NCBI RefSeq assembly: GCF_034424215.1
Contig: NZ_CP139960.1
Span: 5,394,001-5,458,000, forward strand
DNA length: 64,000 nucleotides
Reading direction: 5' to 3'
From: Niabella yanshanensis
GTDB taxonomy: Bacteria > Bacteroidota > Bacteroidia > Chitinophagales > Chitinophagaceae
A program made the translations under genes and the position numbers. Positions 18,425 to 43,934 of the stretch are shown in pieces; the stretch's first letter is position 1; the number at the start of each line of letters is the position of its first letter. Under the pieces are notes generated by a model. That model was not told where the DNA came from, ran no database searches, and saw only the letters and a program-made list of their open reading frames with translations.

Positions 18425-19018
18425 TTATTTTTTATGCCTGGTTTCTAACACCTGTAACACATCGGCCAAAGAGAAACCTTTGGCTTGTAATAATACCAGG
18501 TAATGAAACATCAGGTCGGCTGCCTCTCCCAGAAATAACTCTTTGTTGTCGTCTTTACTTTCGATAACAATTTCAACAGCCTCTTCACCTACTTTCTGAG
18601 CTATTTTGTTAATGCCTTTTGCGAATAACGATGCCGTATAGGACTTTTCGGAAGGGTTGTTCTTCCGGTCAATAATCACTTTTTCCAGTTGCTGCAAAGA
18701 GAATTGATCATTAGCTTCTCCAAAGCAGCTGATATCGCCCGTGTGGCAGGTAGGCCCCTGGGGTTCTGCTTTTATGAGAACGGTATCGTTATCACAATCC
18801 ACCAAAATTTCTTTGACCAGGAGAAAGTTATTGGATGTTTCGCCTTTGGTCCATAAACGTTGTTTACTGCGACTAAAGAAAGTAACTTTCCCCTCCGCCT
18901 GTGTTTTTGCAAAAGCTTCTTCATTCATAAAGCCCAGCATCAGCACTTCCAGCGTAAGTACATCTTGTATAATTACCGGCATCAGGCCGTCGGTATATTT
19001 TGAAAAATCAGGAGCCAT
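18425..19018 (-). CDS. hisIE: Bifunctional phosphoribosyl-AMP cyclohydrolase / phosphoribosyl-ATP pyrophosphatase
   Basis: The product is 197 residues. The HisI half (1-~105) has LGFMNEEAFAKT, FFSRSKQRLWTKGETS and the zinc/active-site block DCDNDTVLI and GPTCHTGDISCF. The HisE half (~110-197) has KSYTASLFAKGINKIAQKVG, EEAVEIVIE and GEAADLMFHYLVLL. Together they carry out steps 2 and 3 of histidine synthesis, removing pyrophosphate from PR-ATP and opening the ring of PR-AMP. The fused form is common. It is the last gene of the operon, 72 bases after hisF. Confidence 0.96.
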   Translation of the reverse strand: MAPDFSKYTDGLMPVIIQDVLTLEVLMLGFMNEEAFAKTQAEGKVTFFSRSKQRLWTKGETSNNFLLVKEILVDCDNDTVLIKAEPQGPTCHTGDISCFGEANDQFSLQQLEKVIIDRKNNPSEKSYTASLFAKGINKIAQKVGEEAVEIVIESKDDNKELFLGEAADLMFHYLVLLQAKGFSLADVLQVLETRHKK

Positions 19019-19090
19019 TTTTTATGATTTTAAGGCCCGTCTTCCGACAGGCAGGTGTATAATTTATTATTTACAATGAACTATCCGCCG

Positions 19091-19846
19091 TTATAACCGC
19101 ACTACAATGTTTTCTTTTTGAAGATATTCTTTTAAATCCTTTATTTCAATTTCTTTAAAATGAAAAATACTGGCCGCCAGCGCTGCATCAGCGTATCCAC
19201 GGGTAAACACTTCCCGGAAATGTTCCATTGAGCCGGCGCCTCCTGATGCAATAACAGGGATGTTTACCGATTGACTGATTTTGGCAGTAATATCAACTGC
19301 GAAACCGGCTTTGGTACCATCATTCTCCATGGAAGTCAGAAGAATTTCTCCGGCTCCCAAATCCCTGCATTGTTTTACCCATTCCGTCGCAAGGAGTGGG
19401 GTAGGCGTGCGCCCCCCATGTGTTACTACTTTCCATATACCATCGAAAAGCTTGATATCTACTGCTACAACCACGCACTGACTTCCGAAATTTTTAGCCA
19501 GTTCGGAAATCAGTTCCGGGCGTTTTACCGCCGATGTATTCACCGAAATTTTATCAGCGCCGTTTTCCAGTAAAACGGAAACGTCATCAACGGTGTTAAT
19601 GCCGCCACCAACAGTGAAAGGTATATTGATATGGGTCGCAATCTTCCTCACCAGATCCGACAGGGTTTTGCGTTTGTCTACGGTAGCGGTAATGTCAAGG
19701 AATACTAATTCATCAGCTCCTTCCTGGCTATAGCGGATGGCCAGTTCTACCGGGTCTCCGGCATCCCTCAACTCCACGAAGTTGGTACCTTTTACGGTTC
19801 GTCCGTCTTTGATATCTAAACAGGGTATAATTCTTTTTGCGAGCAT
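19091..19846 (-). CDS. hisF: Imidazole glycerol phosphate synthase, cyclase subunit
   Basis: The 251-residue TIM barrel begins [20 protein letters not shown], with the catalytic Asp of the CLDIK motif, and has [10 protein letters not shown] and [12 protein letters not shown] phosphate-binding loops and the second catalytic Asp in VVVAVDIK. HisF uses ammonia delivered by HisH to convert PRFAR to IGP and AICAR. HisH is encoded upstream in the same operon, separated by hisA. A 195-base gap with an inverted-repeat element separates it from hisA. Confidence 0.97.
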
Positions 19847-19866
19847 GAAAATTGATATTTATCTTA

Positions 19867-19932
19867 TGTCACCCTGAGCCTGACGAAGGGTGCTTTTAAG
19901 TCCAAACATGGTTCGTGGGGCTCACCATGACA
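19867..19932. repeat. REP-like inverted-repeat element inside the his operon
   Basis: The ends are TGTCACCCTGAGC (19867-19879) and GCTCACCATGACA (19920-19932). The second is the reverse complement of TGTCATGGTGAGC, so the ends form an imperfect 13-bp inverted repeat. The interior contains CTGACGAAGGGTG. The TGTCAnnnTGAGCctgnCGAAGG pattern resembles a short interspersed repeat that I recall from Bacteroidota genomes; copy number here cannot be seen. Confidence 0.55.
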
Positions 19933-20041
19933 TTCGTTGCACGATCTAATTTATTATTCTAAAGACTTAGTTCTTTTTGTTTCGCTTCTGTGCGGTAGTA
20001 GTTGTGAACAATTAATTAGAGATCTCTTAGAAACGAATCCC

Positions 20042-21172
20042 TTAATTGAATTTTTTTAAATCTTCTAATGAGATGCGGTTTTCGTATATCGCCTTCCCTA
20101 CAATCACTCCCGAACATCCCACTTCTTTCAATATTTCAAGATCTTCAATTGAGCTTACACCTCCACTGGCGATCAGGCTAATACCTTCCACGTTGTCCAG
20201 TATCTTTTTGTACAGGTCGTTAGAACTGCCTTGCAGCAAGCCGTCTTTGCTGATGTCGGTGCAAAAGAACTGTAGCACACCTTTGGAGGCATAGTTGCGG
20301 ATGAAGTCGATAATGTTGATGTCTGTAGCAACAGTCCAACCTTTGATCTGTATCTTTTCATCCAGTACATCAGCGCCCAGTATAAATTTTTCAACTCCAT
20401 AAGCTTGGAACCAGTCGGTCAGCAATGCCTCGTTTTTTACGGCTACACTTCCGATAGCCGCATAGGCAGCACCCGAATTAAAAGTTATAGCCAGGCTTTC
20501 GTTAGAGCTGATACCTCCACTAAAGTCGATCTTTAAGCTGGTTTTACCGGCAACCTGTTCCAGTACTTTCCAGTTCCTCACTTCACCCGCTTTCGCTCCA
20601 TCCAGGTCTACCAGGTGTAGTCTTTTTAAACCCGCGTCTTCAAAGCCTTTGGCCACTTCCAACGGGTTTTCATTATATACTGTTTTTTGTGCATAGTCGC
20701 CTTTGCTAAGGCGTACACATTTACCATCTATAATATCTATTGCGGGTATAATTTCCATTTTTTGTTGATTCAGTTTCTTTTCCATTACGATAAAATCTTG
20801 TCCCAATGCCTGCCAGGATTGGGCTACAGCCTGCATGCCCATTTTCTCGTACAAACCGGTAGCAGTTAAGCGGGCATTGCACCACAGCCTTTGTACTTTT
20901 TTTTGCTGCGCCAGTTGGTCTATATAATTTAACAATGAGGTTGCCAGGCCTTTTCCCTGCCAGTCTTTACGGGTGGCCAGTTTGCGAAATTGCATCTCCC
21001 GCCCGTTCTGAAAAACAGATACTACGGATACAAGCTCACCCGTTTTATAAATACCCAGGTGTATACCTAACTCATCATCTTTTAATTTTACCACATCAGC
21101 AGGGTAGTTCGGATACATTACTTCATGTCTCAATAACCACACTTCGGATAAGGGGACTGGTCTTATATCCAT
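20042..21172 (-). CDS. hisA: GNAT acetyltransferase fused to HisA (ProFAR isomerase)
   Basis: One uninterrupted 376-residue frame holds two domains. Residues 1-~136 are a GNAT acetyltransferase with the acetyl-CoA loop RKDWQGKGLATSLL (~69-82) and NARLTATGLYEKMGM. Residues 139-376 are a complete HisA barrel: MEIIPAIDIIDGKCVRLSKG, DLDGAKAGE, FSGGISSNE, CTDISKDGLLQG and IASGGVSSIEDL. HisA converts ProFAR to PRFAR, step 4 of histidine synthesis. The HisA Met139 codon at 20758 could also be an internal start, giving free HisA. The gene begins 1 base after hisH ends. The role of the GNAT domain is unknown. Confidence 0.93.
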   Translation of the reverse strand: MDIRPVPLSEVWLLRHEVMYPNYPADVVKLKDDELGIHLGIYKTGELVSVVSVFQNGREMQFRKLATRKDWQGKGLATSLLNYIDQLAQQKKVQRLWCNARLTATGLYEKMGMQAVAQSWQALGQDFIVMEKKLNQQKMEIIPAIDIIDGKCVRLSKGDYAQKTVYNENPLEVAKGFEDAGLKRLHLVDLDGAKAGEVRNWKVLEQVAGKTSLKIDFSGGISSNESLAITFNSGAAYAAIGSVAVKNEALLTDWFQAYGVEKFILGADVLDEKIQIKGWTVATDINIIDFIRNYASKGVLQFFCTDISKDGLLQGSSNDLYKKILDNVEGISLIASGGVSSIEDLEILKEVGCSGVIVGKAIYENRISLEDLKKFN

Positions 21173-21173
21173 A

Positions 21174-21758
21174 TTAAAGCGCTAAAAAGTTTTTAAGGAT
21201 CTGCTCACCCGTTTCAGCACTTTTCTCCGGGTGGAATTGTACACCGTAAAAATTGTCTCTTGCCAACGCACAGCTAAAATCAATTTCATAATTCGAAGTA
21301 GCAATAGAACTGTTGCTCAGTTCAGCGTAATAGCTATGAACAAAATAACAATAGCTATTGTCGGCAACTCCTTTAAAAAGCGGGTTGTCTTTTACATGTA
21401 TATTATTCCAGCCAATCTGGGGTATTTTTAAAGTATCACTGGTGAATTTTTTGACTTCAACATCAAACAGGCCCAGGCATGGGGTATCGTTTTCTTCGCT
21501 GTGATTGCACAATAATTGCATGCCCAGGCAAATACCCAATAGGGGCTGTGTCGCCGATTGAATCACCTGGTCTAAATTACGCTCTTTCAGGTAACCCATG
21601 GCAGTGCTGGCTTCTCCTACCCCGGGGAAAATAATTTTGTCAGCCGAAAGGATTGATTCCTTGTCATCAGTGACAACTGCTTGCGCCCCTATGCGTTCCA
21701 GTGCAAAAAGCACGGATTGTATATTCCCGGCGTTATATTTTATAATAACCGTTTTCAT
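21174..21758 (-). CDS. hisH: Imidazole glycerol phosphate synthase, glutaminase subunit
   Basis: The 194-residue class I glutamine amidotransferase has the oxyanion region FPGVGEAS, the nucleophile Cys in LLGICLGMQLL and the His-Glu pair in GVQFHPEKSAETG. It supplies ammonia to HisF. Stop and start codons are 1 base from both neighbours (NUDIX upstream, GNAT-hisA downstream), indicating translational coupling. Confidence 0.97.
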   Translation of the reverse strand: MKTVIIKYNAGNIQSVLFALERIGAQAVVTDDKESILSADKIIFPGVGEASTAMGYLKERNLDQVIQSATQPLLGICLGMQLLCNHSEENDTPCLGLFDVEVKKFTSDTLKIPQIGWNNIHVKDNPLFKGVADNSYCYFVHSYYAELSNSSIATSNYEIDFSCALARDNFYGVQFHPEKSAETGEQILKNFLAL

Positions 21759-21759
21759 A

Positions 21760-22200
21760 TTACCTTAAAAATACTTTTTGTTCTTTACTAAGCGCATCCG
21801 AAAGCCAATACGGATTGATTTGGGCCATGTCTACCGGCATATTATCAATGTTGAAGAATTCTAGTGCAGCTGTTTCCTGGTTGAAAAAATCGAGATCTAT
21901 TTTTTCTTCTATTATTGCTTCAAAATAGGAGGTTACATACTGCACGGTCCTGTCGCCATACCGGTAGGTTTGCGAAGCCGGCGATGAATATACTCCAATA
22001 AGGCGGAGGATAATGGCCTTTGAATTGGTCTCTTCTTTAATCTCTCTCTTAATTGCTTCTTCAACTGTTTCCCCAAATTCTACATGGCCAGATATGATAC
22101 CCCACTGGTCAACGTCTCTTCGTTTTTGTAATAGTACTTCTCCTGCGTCATTAAATACAATAGCTGCTACTGCGGGCAATATTTGTAAAGAAGTGTTCAT
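21760..22200 (-). CDS. NUDIX hydrolase inside the his operon
   Basis: The 146-residue protein carries the Nudix box GHVEFGETVEEAIKREIKEE, reaching TNS (consensus Gx5Ex7REUxEExGU, here with a Thr-Asn after EE). It hydrolyses a nucleoside diphosphate-linked compound, substrate undetermined. It is packed between hisB (16 bases) and hisH (1 base), so it is cotranscribed with the pathway. A house-cleaning or PR-ATP-related role is only a guess. Confidence 0.9.
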   Translation of the reverse strand: MNTSLQILPAVAAIVFNDAGEVLLQKRRDVDQWGIISGHVEFGETVEEAIKREIKEETNSKAIILRLIGVYSSPASQTYRYGDRTVQYVTSYFEAIIEEKIDLDFFNQETAALEFFNIDNMPVDMAQINPYWLSDALSKEQKVFLR

Positions 22201-22216
22201 ATACTGTTAAACAATT

Positions 22217-23356
22217 TTATAAAGTTCCTTTTGTTGTGGGTAGCTGCTCATTACCAGGAGTTCTTTTGATCGCCATTTTGATCGCCTTCGCCAGTCCTTT
22301 AAAAATAGCTTCAATTTTATGATGTTCATTCTCTCCTTCAGCTTTAATATTCAGGTTGCATTTCGAACCATCGCTGAAAGATTTAAAAAAGTGATAGAAC
22401 ATTTCTGTAGGCATTTCACCGATTCTTTCTCTTTTGAATTCGGCATCCCACACCAACCAGGGGCGTCCGCCAAAGTCGATCGCTACCTGTGCCAGGCAAT
22501 CATCCATAGGTAATAAGAACCCGTAACGCTCAATGCCGGCCTTGTTCCCCAGCGCAAATTGAAAAGCTTCTCCCAGTGCAATGGCAGTATCTTCTATCGT
22601 GTGATGCTCATCAATATGCAGGTCTCCTTTGGTAATGATTTTCAAGTTGATGCCACTGTGACGGCCCAGCTGATGGAGCATGTGGTCGAAAAAGCCCAAT
22701 CCGGTTTCTATTTCGCAAATACCGGTTCCATCAAGATTGATCTCGATGTCAATTTTAGTTTCGTTGGTATTACGGGTATGTTGAATCACGCGTTCTTTTT
22801 GCTGGAGAAAGCCGTAAATATCTTCCCAGCTTTTTGTCTTCAAAACAATAGTGGTTTCCAGTGCTTTCAAACTGTCGGAGATCTCAGCCGAACCTAAAGA
22901 TTCATCAATATTCAGCCAGATACCTTTACTGCCCAGGTTTTTAGCCAGTTGTATATCAGTAATTCTGTCACCAATTACATAAGAATTATCAAGGTCGTAA
23001 TCAGGGTTGTTCATATACTTCGCAAGTAAACCGGTGCCCGGCTTACGGGTGGGGGCATTGTCTGCCGGATAAGTTTTGTCTATCAAAACTTCATCGAAAA
23101 CAATTCCTTCACTTTCGAGGTTGCGCATTACCAGTTCCTGGTAAGGCCAGAATGTATTTTCCGGAAAGGCATCGCTGCCCAGGCCGTCCTGGTTGGTGAT
23201 CATCACCAGCTCAAAATCCATATCACGCGCTATTTTCCCCATCCAGGTAAACATACCGGGGTAAAATGTTATTTTTTCTATGGAATCCAGCTGGTAGGTA
23301 GGGGGCGCCTCGTTAATTAATGTGCCGTCTCTATCAATAAATAAAACTTTTTTCAT
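22217..23356 (-). CDS. hisB: Bifunctional histidinol-phosphatase / imidazoleglycerol-phosphate dehydratase
   Basis: From the ATG at 23356 the product is 379 residues, beginning [18 protein letters not shown] two codons upstream is less likely as start. The N-terminal HAD phosphatase has the nucleophile motif [15 protein letters not shown] and [14 protein letters not shown]. The C-terminal dehydratase has the metal-binding motifs [27 protein letters not shown] and [10 protein letters not shown]. It catalyses steps 6 and 8, as in the two-domain enzyme of Enterobacteria. It overlaps or abuts the end of hisC. Confidence 0.96.
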
Positions 23357-23358
23357 TG

Positions 23359-24432
23359 TCAAACAGTATAATTTTTTAATGCTTCAATCAATGCCTGGTT
23401 TTCAGCTGCTGTGCCTACGGTAATACGCAGGCAGCCCTCACATCCTTTAGTGGTATTCCGGTTTCTTACAATAATACCTTTGGATTGCAAATAACTAAAA
23501 ACATTATGGGCATCTGTTATTTTCACTAACAGGAAATTGGCGTCTGATGGGAATATCTTTTCAGTGAGTGGAACTTTTGCTAATTCAGTTTCTAACCAGC
23601 TACGTTGTTCAATGGTCGTTTTTGTCCACTGGTTTACCTGCTCTACATGGGTTAAAGCCTGTAACGCCAGCTGCTGGGTTGCTTCGTTAATATTGTAAGG
23701 ATACTTTACATTATTCATCAGGTTGATGATTTCCTTGCTTCCAAAGGCGAGGCCCAGGCGCAAGGCCGCCAATCCCCAGGCTTTGGATAAAGTTTGCATC
23801 ACCACCAGGTTCGGGTAATCCATTAATTGCTGCACAAATGTTTTCTGACGGGCATAGTTGATATAAGCTTCATCAATAACCACGATACCATCAAAGTTAT
23901 TCAGTATAATTTCAATATCCTGGCGGGTAATGCTGTTGCCTGTTGGATTATTAGGAGAGCAGATGAAAATGATCTTGGTAAAATCATCGATGGCGTCTGC
24001 TATAGCCTGTATATCCATCTGGTAATTGTTGTCCAGTGGAACCTCCTTTACTTTGATGTTATTGATCGCAGCGCATACACTGTACATTCCATAAGTAGGG
24101 GGTAGCGTGATAATGTTGTCAACACCCGGTTCGCAAAATATACGCATTAATACATCAATAGCTTCGTCACTGCCATTGCCCGCAAATATGTTTTCAACAG
24201 GCACTCCTTTAATCTCGCTGATGCGTTGTTTAAAACTGAGCTGTAAGGGATCAGGATATCGGTTCAATGACTCATGTAAGTTACCAATATCCAATGTTAC
24301 CGGTGAGCCTAAAGCATTTTCATTGGCATCAAGCATTACACTGGCTTCCCCGGTAAATTCATGCCTTGCAGTAGTATATGGAGCAAGGTTTTTAATATTG
24401 TCTCTTATCAGGTAGTCTAAATTGAATTCCAT
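23359..24432 (-). CDS. hisC: Histidinol-phosphate aminotransferase
   Basis: The 357-residue class I/II PLP aminotransferase has ANENALGSP near the N-terminus, [34 protein letters not shown] and the Schiff-base Lys in [15 protein letters not shown]. The C-terminal Arg region is FLLVKITD and GCLRITVGT. It converts imidazole acetol phosphate to histidinol phosphate. Its stop codon lies just before the hisB start. Confidence 0.96.
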
Positions 24433-24467
24433 TGTTATAAAATTAATCGTTCATATCTTAAGAAGCA

Positions 24468-25736
24468 TTAGAGTCGGATCTTAACCGCGTTACTATGCGC
24501 CTGTAGTCCTTCGGCTTCAGCCATAGTAGTAACTGTTTTGGCTATGTTATGTAAACCGTCTTTAGTTAATTGCTGGAAAGTGATCTTCTTATAAAAGCTA
24601 TCCAGTGATACGCCACTGTAAGCCGTTGCATACCCGTTAGTTGGCAGGGTATGATTGGTGCCGCTGGCATAATCACCCACACTTTCAGGTGAATAGTTGC
24701 CAATAAATACGGAGCCCGCTGTGGTGATCTGTTTTAAAACAGTGTTGCTGGTCTTGCAGGCCAGTATCAGGTGCTCCGGAGCATATAGATTTGAAAATGC
24801 AATAGCATCACTCACGGTATTTAACACTACAAACCTTGCAAATTGCAGGGCCAGCAGTGCTATATCCTTGCGGGGAAGTTCTGCCAGCTGAAGCGCGATG
24901 GCTGCCTGTACCTTCGTTGCAATATCGAGAGTGGTGCAGGCCAGTATTACCTGTGAATCAGGACCGTGTTCTGCCTGGGCTAACAGGTCAGCCGCCACAA
25001 ATTCGGGTACCGATGTTTCGTCTGCAATTACCAAAACCTCCGAAGGGCCCGCAGGCATGTCAATGGCTACTTTGGTTTGAAGAATTTGTTTGGCGGCGGT
25101 CACATACTGGTTGCCCGGACCAAATATCTTAAATACGGAAGGAATCGTTTTAGTTCCGTAAGCCATGGCAGCAATAGCCTGTGCCCCCCCGGTTTTAAAA
25201 ATCTTGCTGATACCGCATACAGAGGCTGCATACAATATAGCATCGTTGATTTTGCCATTTTTATCGGGTGGTGTGCATAAAATAACCTCCTGGCATCCCG
25301 CGATCAAAGCAGGAACGCCCAACATTAAAACCGTGGAGAACAGGGGCGCAGAGCCTCCCGGGATATACAGGCCTACTTTATCAATAGCCCTTGCTTCCCT
25401 CCAGCACAGGATGCCCTTGGTAGTTTCTGTTTTTACCACAGCCTGTTTTTGCGTGGCATGAAATTTCTGGATATTATTTTTGGCCTGCTGTATGGCTTTC
25501 TTAAGCTGGGGGGCAATATTCTTGGTGGCTGCAGCTATTTCCTTTGCCGACACCTGCAGGCTTTTCAGTATTACTCCGTCAAACTTTTCTGCGTAACTTT
25601 TCAGGGCCGCATCACCATTGTTGGCCACATCATAAATAATCGCATTAACAGTGGCCTGTATAGTATTGCTATTCTGCAGGGGCCGCTGGCAAATCGCAGG
25701 CCAGGCTTTAGAAGAGGGATATTTATAGAGTTTCAA
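24468..25736 (-). CDS. hisD: Histidinol dehydrogenase
   Basis: The 422-residue enzyme oxidises histidinol to histidine in two NAD-dependent steps. Visible motifs are GLYIPGGSAPLFSTVLMLG, IFGPGNQYVTAAKQ, DMPAGPSEVLVIAD, LLAQAEHGPDSQ, YAPEHLIL and GSVFIGNYSPESVGDYASGT. No in-frame ATG exists near the conserved N-terminus and an in-frame TAA lies upstream, so translation probably begins at TTG 25736 (MKLYKYPSSKAW). It is separated from hisG by 102 bases. Confidence 0.96.
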   Translation of the reverse strand: MKLYKYPSSKAWPAICQRPLQNSNTIQATVNAIIYDVANNGDAALKSYAEKFDGVILKSLQVSAKEIAAATKNIAPQLKKAIQQAKNNIQKFHATQKQAVVKTETTKGILCWREARAIDKVGLYIPGGSAPLFSTVLMLGVPALIAGCQEVILCTPPDKNGKINDAILYAASVCGISKIFKTGGAQAIAAMAYGTKTIPSVFKIFGPGNQYVTAAKQILQTKVAIDMPAGPSEVLVIADETSVPEFVAADLLAQAEHGPDSQVILACTTLDIATKVQAAIALQLAELPRKDIALLALQFARFVVLNTVSDAIAFSNLYAPEHLILACKTSNTVLKQITTAGSVFIGNYSPESVGDYASGTNHTLPTNGYATAYSGVSLDSFYKKITFQQLTKDGLHNIAKTVTTMAEAEGLQAHSNAVKIRL

Positions 25737-25838: not shown

Positions 25839-26696
25839 TTACTCGATGATCTTTTCAATGGGTAAGATCAGTATACCCTCTGCACCTGCTGATTTTATTT
25901 TTTCGATGACATTCCAGAAGTCGTTTTCACCAATTACAGAATGAATAGAAGACCAGCCTTCTTTAGCCAAGGGAACAATGGTAGGGCTGTTGATGCCGGG
26001 CAGGTATTTGCAGATTTTTTCAATGCTGCTATTGGGTGCATTCAATAATACATATTTATTATACTTCGCTTTTTTTACCGAACGGATACGGAATAAAAGC
26101 TGTTCTAAGAGTGCTGTTCTTTTTTTGGAAATGTTTTTACCGGAAATAAGAACCGCTTCAGATTTCAGGATAGTTTCGTATTCATACAGCTCATTGCTGA
26201 ATAGTGTGCTGCCACTGCTTACCAAATCGCAGATAGCATCGGCCAAACCTATACGGGGCGCTATTTCCACAGAGCCGCTGATTTCATGGATATCAGCTTT
26301 TAGCTTATTTTTCTTTAACCACCCTTGCAGGATAATCGGATAGCTGGTAGCAATTTTAATCCCATCTAATGCCTGTATATTTTTAGGCTTTTTACCCTTA
26401 GGTAAGGCAATGGATAAACGGCATTTTCCATAACCCAGCCGCTCAACAATTTCTGTTTCTTTATTTTTTTCAAGCACCACGTTCTCTCCAACAAAGCCAA
26501 TATCTGCTACACCGTCCTGTACATACTCCGGGATATCGTCGTCACGCAAAAACAGTATTTCTGCGTCAAAATTCTCAGTACTTATTTTTAACTGGTTATT
26601 TCCCGCAGGTACGCCTATTCCGCATTCTTTCAGCAGCTTAAGGGAGTCTTCACTGAGTCTGCCTGATTTTTGTACCGCGATTCGTAGCTTTTCCAT
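25839..26696 (-). CDS. hisG: ATP phosphoribosyltransferase, long form
   Basis: The 285-residue enzyme catalyses the committed first step, joining ATP and PRPP. It shows LRIAVQKSGRLSEDSLKLL at the N-terminus, IGFVGENVVLEK, the PRPP-binding block GLADAICDLVSSGSTL, and a C-terminal ACT-like regulatory domain (~210-285) typical of the HisG long form that needs no HisZ. It is the first structural gene of the operon and lies directly behind the leader peptide and attenuator. Confidence 0.96.
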   Translation of the reverse strand: MEKLRIAVQKSGRLSEDSLKLLKECGIGVPAGNNQLKISTENFDAEILFLRDDDIPEYVQDGVADIGFVGENVVLEKNKETEIVERLGYGKCRLSIALPKGKKPKNIQALDGIKIATSYPIILQGWLKKNKLKADIHEISGSVEIAPRIGLADAICDLVSSGSTLFSNELYEYETILKSEAVLISGKNISKKRTALLEQLLFRIRSVKKAKYNKYVLLNAPNSSIEKICKYLPGINSPTIVPLAKEGWSSIHSVIGENDFWNVIEKIKSAGAEGILILPIEKIIE

Positions 26697-26730: not shown

Positions 26731-26764
26731 GAAAATAAAAAAGGCTTACAAACTGTAAGCCTTT
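26731..26764 (-). terminator. Attenuator terminator of the his operon
   Basis: On the minus strand, AAAGGCTTAC and GTAAGCCTTT pair perfectly (plus 26755-26764 and 26740-26749) around AGTTT, followed by TTTTATTTT. It lies between the leader peptide and hisG. Its 5' arm GGCTTAC is also complementary to GTAAGCC around the leader stop codon, giving a competing antiterminator. Confidence 0.85.
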
Positions 26765-26792
26765 ATATAAGTTGATACATAGCACCACCGGC

Positions 26793-26846
26793 TTACTGCT
26801 GTAAGTTTGTAAAATGATGATGGATATGTATATTGCTAAGTGTCAT
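26793..26846 (-). CDS. hisL: His operon leader peptide
   Basis: An ATG-to-TAA frame encodes 17 residues, MTLSNIHIHHHFTNLQQ, with four His codons within five positions (7, 9, 10, 11). It is immediately followed by hairpin segments. CTTAC-AGCA-GTAAG covers its last codons (segments 1:2), GTAAGCC can instead pair with GGCTTAC downstream (2:3), and the latter forms the terminator with GTAAGCC (3:4). A ribosome stalled on His codons would cover segment 1 and favour antitermination; one reaching the stop codon would cover segment 2 and favour termination. This is the classical layout of histidine attenuation. Confidence 0.88.
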   Translation of the reverse strand: MTLSNIHIHHHFTNLQQ

Positions 26847-26853
26847 TGCGCGG

Positions 26854-26861
26854 CAAATATA
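26854..26861 (-). promoter_or_regulatory. Candidate -7 promoter box of the his operon
   Basis: The minus strand reads TATATTTG, matching TAnnTTTG, only 8 bases before the leader-peptide ATG. If used, the leader would be nearly leaderless. No -33 element is evident. Confidence 0.45.
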
Positions 26862-27021
26862 GAAACTAATTGAATAGAATAGTAGATTTTAGTTGAAAAA
26901 ATGAAAATTATTTATTGACTGCCGCATTTCTCTTGATTTTTAAAGGATGGGTATCTGATCTATAACCCGGTAAGGGTATTATCGGCTATTTATCCGATAC
27001 TATTTATTATTGGCTTCTGAG

Positions 27022-27041
27022 CCGATATTTTGTAATATCGG
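27022..27041. promoter_or_regulatory. Palindromic candidate operator upstream of satD
   Basis: CCGATATT (27022-27029) and AATATCGG (27034-27041) form a perfect 8-bp inverted repeat around TTGT. A further GCGATATT half-site follows at 27050-27057. It lies ~90 bases before satD, whose product has a C-terminal helix-turn-helix-like region, so autoregulation is plausible. Confidence 0.5.
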
Positions 27042-27132
27042 TGATATGAGCGATATTTAGGTAGTGAATGGAAGGGAAACCTCAACGAGGTTGAGGACGT
27101 ATGATCAGATTGGAAGCTAAAATTAAAATGAA

Positions 27133-27732
27133 ATGACGGCGGTAATTACGGGTGATATCGTAAATTCAAGAACTGAAACGGCTACCAAATGGCAGCCGTT
27201 GCTAAAAGCGGTGTTAAACCAGTATGGTAAAGAACCGAAGAGCTGGGAAATTTACAGGGGCGACAGCTTTCAACTGCGCCTGGTGCCCGATAGTGCCTTA
27301 ATAGCGGCAATACATATAAAAAGTACGATCAGGCAACTGGCGAATCTGGATGTGCGTATGGCAATAGGAATAGGCACTATAGATACAGAGGCTAAAAAGG
27401 TAACTGAAGTAACCGGCGAAGCGTTCATCCGCTCGGGAAGCCGTTTTGATGAAATAGGAAAGCAAATGCTGGTGATAGATACCGGGCAACCCGAATTAAA
27501 TGAAACGTTGAATTTAATGATTAGCCTCGCACTGCTGACCCTGAACAGCTGGAGTGAAACCGTTGCAACAGCCATTAAAACCAGCATCGAAAACCCTCAT
27601 AAAAACCAGAGCGAACTGGCTGAAATCCTGCAAAAAACGCAAAGTAGTATCAGCGAGGCTTTAAAAAGAGGGGGATATGATGAAGTTAAGAAACTGAATA
27701 AATACTATCAATCTAAGATCGGGCAGCTATGA
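27133..27732 (+). CDS. SatD family protein
   Basis: The 199-residue protein begins MTAVITGDIVNSRTE, with WEIYRGDSFQLRL and RMAIGIGTIDTE, the pattern of the SatD family. It ends with a winged-helix-like segment (HKNQSELAEILQKTQSSISE, followed by ALKRGG). The N-terminal part resembles a nucleotidyl-cyclase-like fold. The family is poorly characterised; the name comes from the acid-tolerance sat operon of streptococci. Its stop overlaps the start of the next gene (ATGA), so the two are translationally coupled. Confidence 0.8.
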   Translation: MTAVITGDIVNSRTETATKWQPLLKAVLNQYGKEPKSWEIYRGDSFQLRLVPDSALIAAIHIKSTIRQLANLDVRMAIGIGTIDTEAKKVTEVTGEAFIRSGSRFDEIGKQMLVIDTGQPELNETLNLMISLALLTLNSWSETVATAIKTSIENPHKNQSELAEILQKTQSSISEALKRGGYDEVKKLNKYYQSKIGQL

Positions 27733-43549: not shown

Positions 43550-43551
43550 AG

Positions 43552-43934
43552 TGGAGGCGACCGGGATCGAACCGGTGTCCAAACATATCCTCCAAAAGCT
43601 TTCTACATGCTTATTTCTTTATTATTTGTCGGCAATGAACCGGGAAAGAACCAACCAATTCAAAACTTAGCTGCCCCGAAGTTTCGGGGGTCTTTTGCTA
43701 CGCTCACAGCCTTGCGCAGCAGCATTCTGTTTTTGTTTTTAAGTCGGCGGCGGAGCTTGGTAACAGACCAACCTGCTCAAGCGGCCCTAATGACTATCTA
43801 ATCACTGATTAGGCAGCCATGGCATACTGTGTATTGCCATTTGAAGTTTGAGTATTCAGATTAACGGGCTAATTACACAACGCCCGACATGCTTACACTT
43901 TCAAAGACCTACGCTGTCAAAACCAAGCGCCCCC
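43552..43934 (-). ncRNA. ssrA: Transfer-messenger RNA
   Basis: The minus strand ends with the tRNA-like 3' part, GGTTCGATCCCGG T-arm and CGCCTCC acceptor strand plus discriminator A. The 5' end GGGGGCG pairs with CGCCTCC with one G-U. CCA is not encoded. The tag frame at 43838-43809 reads GGC AAT ACA CAG TAT GCC ATG GCT GCC TAA, peptide GNTQYAMAA, the type used in this phylum (starts with Gly, ends AMAA/ALAA). The stop is embedded in a TAATCA-TGATTAG hairpin as usual. The 383-base length fits. tmRNA rescues stalled ribosomes and tags nascent proteins for decay. Confidence 0.93.

Follow-up and report, generated by a model that had tools for sequence, protein, structure and literature searches.

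A predicted ribosome-mediated attenuator with a histidine leader peptide before hisG in Niabella yanshanensis and other Bacteroidota

The leader of the his operon of Niabella yanshanensis is, with a probability that we put at about 0.92, a ribosome-mediated transcription attenuator, a reading that rests on sequence comparison and on predicted RNA folds. The window analysed here is the whole stretch of 64,000 nt from this genome, which is 5.54 Mb long, forms a single contig and belongs to the family Chitinophagaceae. The parts of the element, their conservation, their co-variation and their mutual exclusion were shown by computation. The original prediction had placed a leader ORF with four His codons and then a T-tailed intrinsic terminator before hisG, and both were located exactly as claimed (Table 1).

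Anatomy and predicted folding of the his leader

The His codons of the leader lie at 26828-26826, 26822-26820, 26819-26817 and 26816-26814 and give the run HIHHH. The pairing claimed for segment 2 at the leader stop with the terminator 5' arm holds at every base. The claim for segment 1 stood in part: its CTTAC can pair with GTAAG, but the main partner within the leader is a helix that protects the His codons and that had been missed, in which ATACATA..CATCATC pairs with GGTGGTG..TATGTAT in the predicted fold of the window. In the minimum-energy fold GTAAG has TTTAC (26813-26809) as its alternative partner. A promoter does fit just before the leader, as had been proposed, but it is a Bacteroidota -7 box and not sigma-70-like; a sigma-70 promoter was rejected, the corresponding scan having given 2 sites against 2.3 expected. 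The terminator scan of an 801-base stretch returned 6 terminator-like sites on both strands against 0.6 expected from shuffles, and the one in the his leader has the longest stem.

Table 1 Features of the his leader and operon. Positions are those of the window.
Feature	Positions	Strand	Basis or remark
Predicted -7 box TATATTTG, Bacteroidota sigma-A type	26854..26861	-	fits T[AT]nnTTTG
Predicted transcription start	26849	-	3-nt 5'UTR (GCA-AUG); from box at -12 to -5
Leader ORF MTLSNIHIHHHFTNLQQ*	26793..26846	-	four His codons; His run kept in relatives
Protector helix, 5' side, ATACATA..CATCATC, includes His codons	26816..26831	-	predicted fold, swap test
CTTAC, originally proposed segment 1	26801..26805	-	sequence; can pair with GTAAG
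Segment 2 GTAAGCC, antiterminator 5' strand	26790..26796	-	spans leader stop TAA
Protector helix, 3' side, GGTGGTGCTATGTAT (GGTGGTG..TATGTAT)	26775..26789	-	predicted fold, swap test
GGCTTAC, common to antiterminator and terminator 5' arm	26755..26761	-	perfect complement of segment 2
Intrinsic terminator hairpin AAAGGCTTACA-GTT-TGTAAGCCTTT, then TTTATTTT	26740..26764	-	terminator scan
hisG, ATP phosphoribosyltransferase, first structural gene	25839..26696	-	NCBIfam TIGR00070 above cut-off; start 26696
hisD, hisC, hisB (bifunctional), Nudix ORF, hisH, GNAT-hisA fusion, hisF, hisIE	18425..25736	-	

In the proposed mechanism transcription would begin about 3 nt before the leader AUG. With ample His-tRNA the ribosome would pass HIHHH, reach the stop inside GUAAGCC and cover this segment, and GGCUUAC would then pair with the downstream copy of GUAAGCC and transcription would terminate. 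With scarce His-tRNA the ribosome would stall at the His codons and open their helix with GGUGGUG..UAUGUAU, which would leave GUAAGCC free for the emerging GGCUUAC and let RNA polymerase continue into hisG. If no ribosome loaded, the helix of the His codons would enclose and tie up GUAAGCC, and the terminator would form. What we infer in this scheme is the start site, that the leader is translated and that it responds to histidine.

The folds calculated for the leader of the window gave -13.2 kcal/mol for the nascent protector, -13.1 kcal/mol for the antiterminator with a stalled ribosome (from nt 47) and -14.8 kcal/mol for the terminator with the ribosome at the stop. Once the full leader is transcribed, the terminator remains the minimum-energy fold even when segment 2 is free, which means that antitermination can prevail only by timing.

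Two peculiarities of the operon itself were observed. At its N-terminus HisA (20042-21172, minus strand) has an additional GNAT acetyltransferase domain (residues 39-134, PF13673), and between hisB and hisH lies a Nudix ORF (21760-22200).

Spread, co-variation and predicted states

HisG searches were positive in 71 of 119 genomes of relatives, 65 of 149 at the level of the order, 87 of 198 of the class and 171 of 198 of the phylum, in sets that overlap. The 213 distinct hisG upstreams compared here come from part of the HisG-positive genomes; a duplicate (L001), a locus at a contig end (L068), four loci whose HisG start was not alignable (L205-L208) and repeat loci per genome were left out beforehand, and the most divergent HisG lineages (about 28-30% identity) lie outside this set. 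Of the 213 Bacteroidota upstreams, 154 have a His-run ORF and then an intrinsic terminator, against 1 of 2130 shuffles; the upstreams come from related genomes and so are not independent samples. A His leader alone appeared in 23 of 2130 shuffles. Sorted by identity of the aligned HisG segment, leader and terminator were present in 15/15 loci at 80% or more, 25/26 at 65-80%, 55/77 at 60-65%, 35/54 at 55-60%, 15/22 at 50-55%, 9/18 at 40-50% and 0/1 below 40%.

The remaining 59 of the 213 failed this rule, 16 of them carrying a His-run ORF without a terminator that the rule accepts, and the pattern misses some true variants, such as L023 and L104, which resemble elements by eye. His-run ORFs before hisG without an accepted terminator were seen at L182, L183, L187, L188, L200, L202, L203, L133, L136, L139 and L155, loci of more distant families, and in several of them inspection by eye shows a hairpin close to the stop codon or at it; these are possibly a Rho-dependent or translational version. 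The set of 80 loci from named organisms, whose genomes are partly shared with the 213, has the element in 57, for example in Chitinophaga eiseniae, Flavihumibacter fluminis, Winogradskyella bathintestinalis, Brumimicrobium glaciale and a Lutibacter MAG. The rule failed in this named set for four Dyadobacter, two Algoriphagus, three Pontibacter and Marivirga arenosa, and several Cytophagales are among its failures. Three genomes of the same genus as the window (G002, G003 and G012) have hisG frames with internal stops and intact leaders (L069, L005 and L018); the stops may be assembly errors.

A covariance model built from 41 alignment rows was run on 119 genomes, and 51 of these had one match each at E 6.5e-10 or better. 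Adding two weaker matches (G068 and G030) brings the number to 53, all upstream of hisG on the same strand at distances of 6-497 nt. They come from 53 of the 58 Chitinophagaceae genomes in which HisG was matched; in three of the other five HisG is shortened or fragmented. With the limit set at E 0.01, 105 of the 119 genomes had a match, and therefore only strong matches are meaningful. A match in G035 (5.4e-7), as weak as those of G068 and G030, sits upstream of asd. We fetched 14 low-scoring matches, of which 10 lie before asd, one before trpE and one before an aminotransferase gene; low-scoring matches were rejected as further His elements. The leader was not recognisable in two of the 14 (L340 and L347).

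Pooling and de-duplication gave 205 elements, and in these we exchanged arms between elements, with 2000 permutations for the zone of segment 2 against the terminator arm. For the zone that follows the His run and surrounds the leader stop, the mean pairing energy with the terminator 5' arm of the same element is -12.62 kcal/mol, compared with -9.68 for swapped arms (sd 0.17, lowest -10.24; n=205). The same test gave -11.82 vs -8.30 (sd 0.25) in the 94 elements without GGCTTRC-type arms, and a smaller effect, -13.30 vs -12.39 (sd 0.13), in the 111 elements with such arms. Likewise, the region of the His run pairs better with its own post-stop segment than with swapped ones (-14.32 vs -11.59 kcal/mol, sd 0.17, n=205). 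The arm pairs themselves differ by lineage, being GTAAGCC/GGCTTAC in the family of the window, GGCAGGC/GCCTGCC in L041 and TCAAGCG/CGTTTGA in L143.

In a fixed alignment of 41 rows, part of 91 pre-selected for GGCTTAC and the segment-2 motif, the terminator consensus has 10 pairs, 3 of them with compensatory changes on both sides, and the gaps before segment 2 occur in threes by eye. The antiterminator has 97.0% paired cells against 94.8% in shuffles (0 of 500 reach this value) in these rows, which were pre-selected for both motifs; its two measures of two-sided change are not clearly above shuffles in the 41 rows (447 and 53 of 500). For the protector, 73.3% of cells are paired, against a maximum of 44.8% at slid positions; in the same 41 rows it does not stand out clearly from column shuffles, of which 42 in 500 reach the percentage of paired cells and 139 in 500 the number of cells with two-sided change. 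RNAalifold on the family alignment returned the terminator and neither of the alternative helices.

All four states of classical attenuation were predicted in 171 of the 205 elements (83%), against 19% of 1025 middle-shuffled controls. Segment 2 is tied up upstream in 182 of 205 (control 39%), and the stalled state gives the antiterminator in 194 of 205 (control 45%). As the control retains the terminator, the two terminator states carry no information. On average, antiterminator and terminator have the same energy (-16.5 each). The original prediction had proposed that the attenuation logic controls this operon and that the hisG upstreams of related genomes be compared. In this comparison close relatives, and many distant ones too, retain both the His run and the alternative pairings, and the pairing arms co-vary, an outcome that supports the proposed logic.

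Predicted near-leaderless start and the versions before trpE and asd

The TAnnTTTG box of Bacteroidota is located at -12 to -5 according to the text of PMC9723704. Taken with the arrangement TATATTTG-ccgcgca-ATG in the window, this position predicts a 5'UTR of 3 nt. For the other elements we scored the strict form T[AT]nnTTTG, allowing any in-frame leader start and treating shuffles likewise. A box ending 2-12 nt before such a start was found in 113 of 205 elements against 242 of 4100 shuffled upstreams, and one ending 4-10 nt before it, which predicts a 5'UTR of 0-6 nt, in 104 of 205 against 199 of 4100. If one start per leader is counted, the box (2-12 nt) is present at 106 of 205 elements against 83 of 4100 shuffles. 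The comparison sets have it at 16 of 192 hisG starts and at 1 of 47 long ORFs of the window. Elements with GGCTTRC arms have the box more commonly (86/111) than those with other arms (27/94), and for this reason we regard it as a trait of the wider group of the window and not of every element. Leaderless mRNAs make up 5.5% in Flavobacterium psychrophilum in the figures of PMC9723704, and 5'UTRs under 10 nt are given as about 3.7% in B. thetaiotaomicron; a class of leaders with common near-leaderless starts would stand out against this background. Bacteroidota mRNAs are described, in the relevant passages of PMC7366714 and PMC9723704, as being without Shine-Dalgarno signals. The predicted near-leaderless start raises the question of how ribosomes would load fast enough to match the pace of RNA polymerase.

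Similar leaders precede other amino-acid genes. A leader with a Trp run (WWW) and a terminator were found before trpE homologues in 29 of 30 loci, compared with 2 of 600 shuffles for the Trp-run leader; this design was noted at L413 (the same genome as the window, leader MKNKKNLFWWWHANSNGVL*), L383-L412 and L350. The trpE query from this genome is a gene fragment whose best family is trpE, TIGR00564, below the cut-off for full length. A Lys/Thr-rich leader with a terminator stands before asd in 25 of the 30 nearest loci, 17 of them from the same genus (shuffles 0/600), and looks like an attenuator of the aspartate family. The loci with this leader in Chitinophagaceae are L339, L341-L346, L348 and L351-L382, with MTIKKHTKIKKHP and KHTK variants. 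In the genome of the window the leader is MTIKKHTKIKKHP with arms GGAAGG/CCTTCC (L339, G000:C1:3529525-3529643, minus strand), and the asd gene passes families NF011456 and TIGR01296. Only 1 of 18 further loci (8 of the same family and 10 of the same order) passed for the asd leader, and L414 is a variant by eye. The -7 box lies 2-12 nt before the leader start in 19 of 23 asd and in 16 of 29 trpE leaders. Before an aminotransferase-like gene (L349, G017) we observed the leader MTRHKVYKNMKRFTTTR* with the terminator GGCTTACC.

In three operons the codons follow the pathway, with His before hisG, Trp before trpE and Lys/Thr before asd, and this is strong indirect support for a read-out by the ribosome. 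We lean slightly towards the view that Chitinophagaceae use a single near-leaderless attenuation chassis with exchangeable codon runs, that is, His for hisG, Trp for trpE and Lys/Thr with the core KHTK..KK for asd. If this is true, the leader before asd would serve the aspartate-family branch as a Lys/Thr sensor read by the ribosome, and each of the three leaders would require that ribosomes initiate on mRNA essentially without a 5'UTR, which is reportedly rare in the phylum.

Alternative explanations and known systems

The hairpin could be a constitutive partial terminator that lowers his transcription by a fixed factor, the His-rich ORF being incidental or untranslated. The terminator is indeed predicted without a stalled ribosome in 200 of the 205 elements, and in the window it is the minimum-energy fold even with segment 2 free. 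We nevertheless consider this explanation very unlikely, as it does not account for a His run that is kept while the rest of the peptide varies, for the co-variation of both the segment-2 zone and the His-codon region with their partners, or for the Trp runs at the equivalent place in trpE leaders. It is also conceivable that histidine is sensed without ribosome stalling, by a protein or a tRNA that binds the leader RNA or by a leader peptide acting in trans. A trans-acting leader peptide has been reported, as summarised in PMC7298713, and no Rfam family reaches its cut-off on the his leader RNA. This explanation seems highly improbable, given that no T-box was found at gathering score and that the identity of the codons tracks the pathway at hisG, trpE and asd, which a stalling ribosome explains directly.

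Intergenic intrinsic terminators usually mark the ends of genes, and the hairpin might simply be the terminator of another gene. The next gene upstream of the his leader is, however, a divergent SatD-like gene at 27133 on the plus strand, and inspection of the window gave no long minus-strand ORF that ends just upstream. In addition, the 43 nt between hairpin and hisG are free of T[AT]nnTTTG boxes, and the leader co-varies with the hairpin. We give this explanation next to no weight. The divergent neighbour and the box-free gap make hisG appear to depend on read-through of the terminator.

The his operon attenuator of enteric bacteria is hisL, filed in Rfam as His_leader (RF00514). The element described here is like enteric hisL in that a short leader peptide with a His run precedes hisG, with alternative hairpins, an intrinsic terminator and, as predicted here, a read-out by a stalled ribosome. 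Unlike enteric hisL, which is longer and has multiple hairpins, its core consists of protector, antiterminator and terminator, and the 3-nt 5'UTR predicted in the window has no room for a Shine-Dalgarno site. His_leader is not among the 11 Rfam matches to the his leader at E up to 10, and the element is therefore not filed under that model. Sub-threshold matches such as DapZ (28 bits, cut-off 56) and Phe_leader (26.9, cut-off 55) were treated as chance.

The Bacteroid-trp RNA is, as its name says, linked to trp genes. This family (RF01692; PMC2864571) is likewise a candidate cis-regulatory RNA of Bacteroidetes; it was found in 0 of 39 genomes of the order of the window or nearer, though trpE there has WWW leaders. 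The original prediction called such attenuation little described for the phylum, which is right only in part. We found no fuller account of a Bacteroidota his attenuator in the literature searched, mostly outside subscription journals, but PMC9723704 (2021) already proposes leader-peptide attenuation in F. psychrophilum, for which it reports strong clues before amino-acid biosynthesis operons. The same paper describes a structured 5' element before hisG, without an Rfam hit and present in other Flavobacteriaceae, and so in the same phylum and at the same gene as the element here; the peptide, the segments and the start site, which are given here, do not appear in its passages on that element. 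In Streptomyces lividans (PMC8079986) trpL, leuL and ilvL are similar in having a leader peptide without a 5'UTR, several of them followed by competing hairpins and a terminator. Those attenuators belong to Actinobacteria, and none of the eight leader peptides listed there is assigned to His. Earlier predicted regulation, as cited in a passage of PMC4833913, concerns hisG in gamma-proteobacteria, hisZ in Bacillus and Clostridium and lysQ in Lactococcus. What is new here is the explicit anatomy, the co-variation, the spread, the near-leaderless start and the shared design, attenuation itself being already well known. To our knowledge, little has been established about how Bacteroidota regulate amino-acid synthesis, and a His attenuator that recurs in many families would offer this phylum a codon-programmed regulator open to experimental test.

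Two further observations concern the window itself. Several small hairpins lie at 26967-27096, between the his promoter and the divergent SatD-like gene. The Rfam scan of the window at gathering score returned a tmRNA and nothing else; its gene is at 43551-43934 on the minus strand and has the tag GNTQYAMAA.
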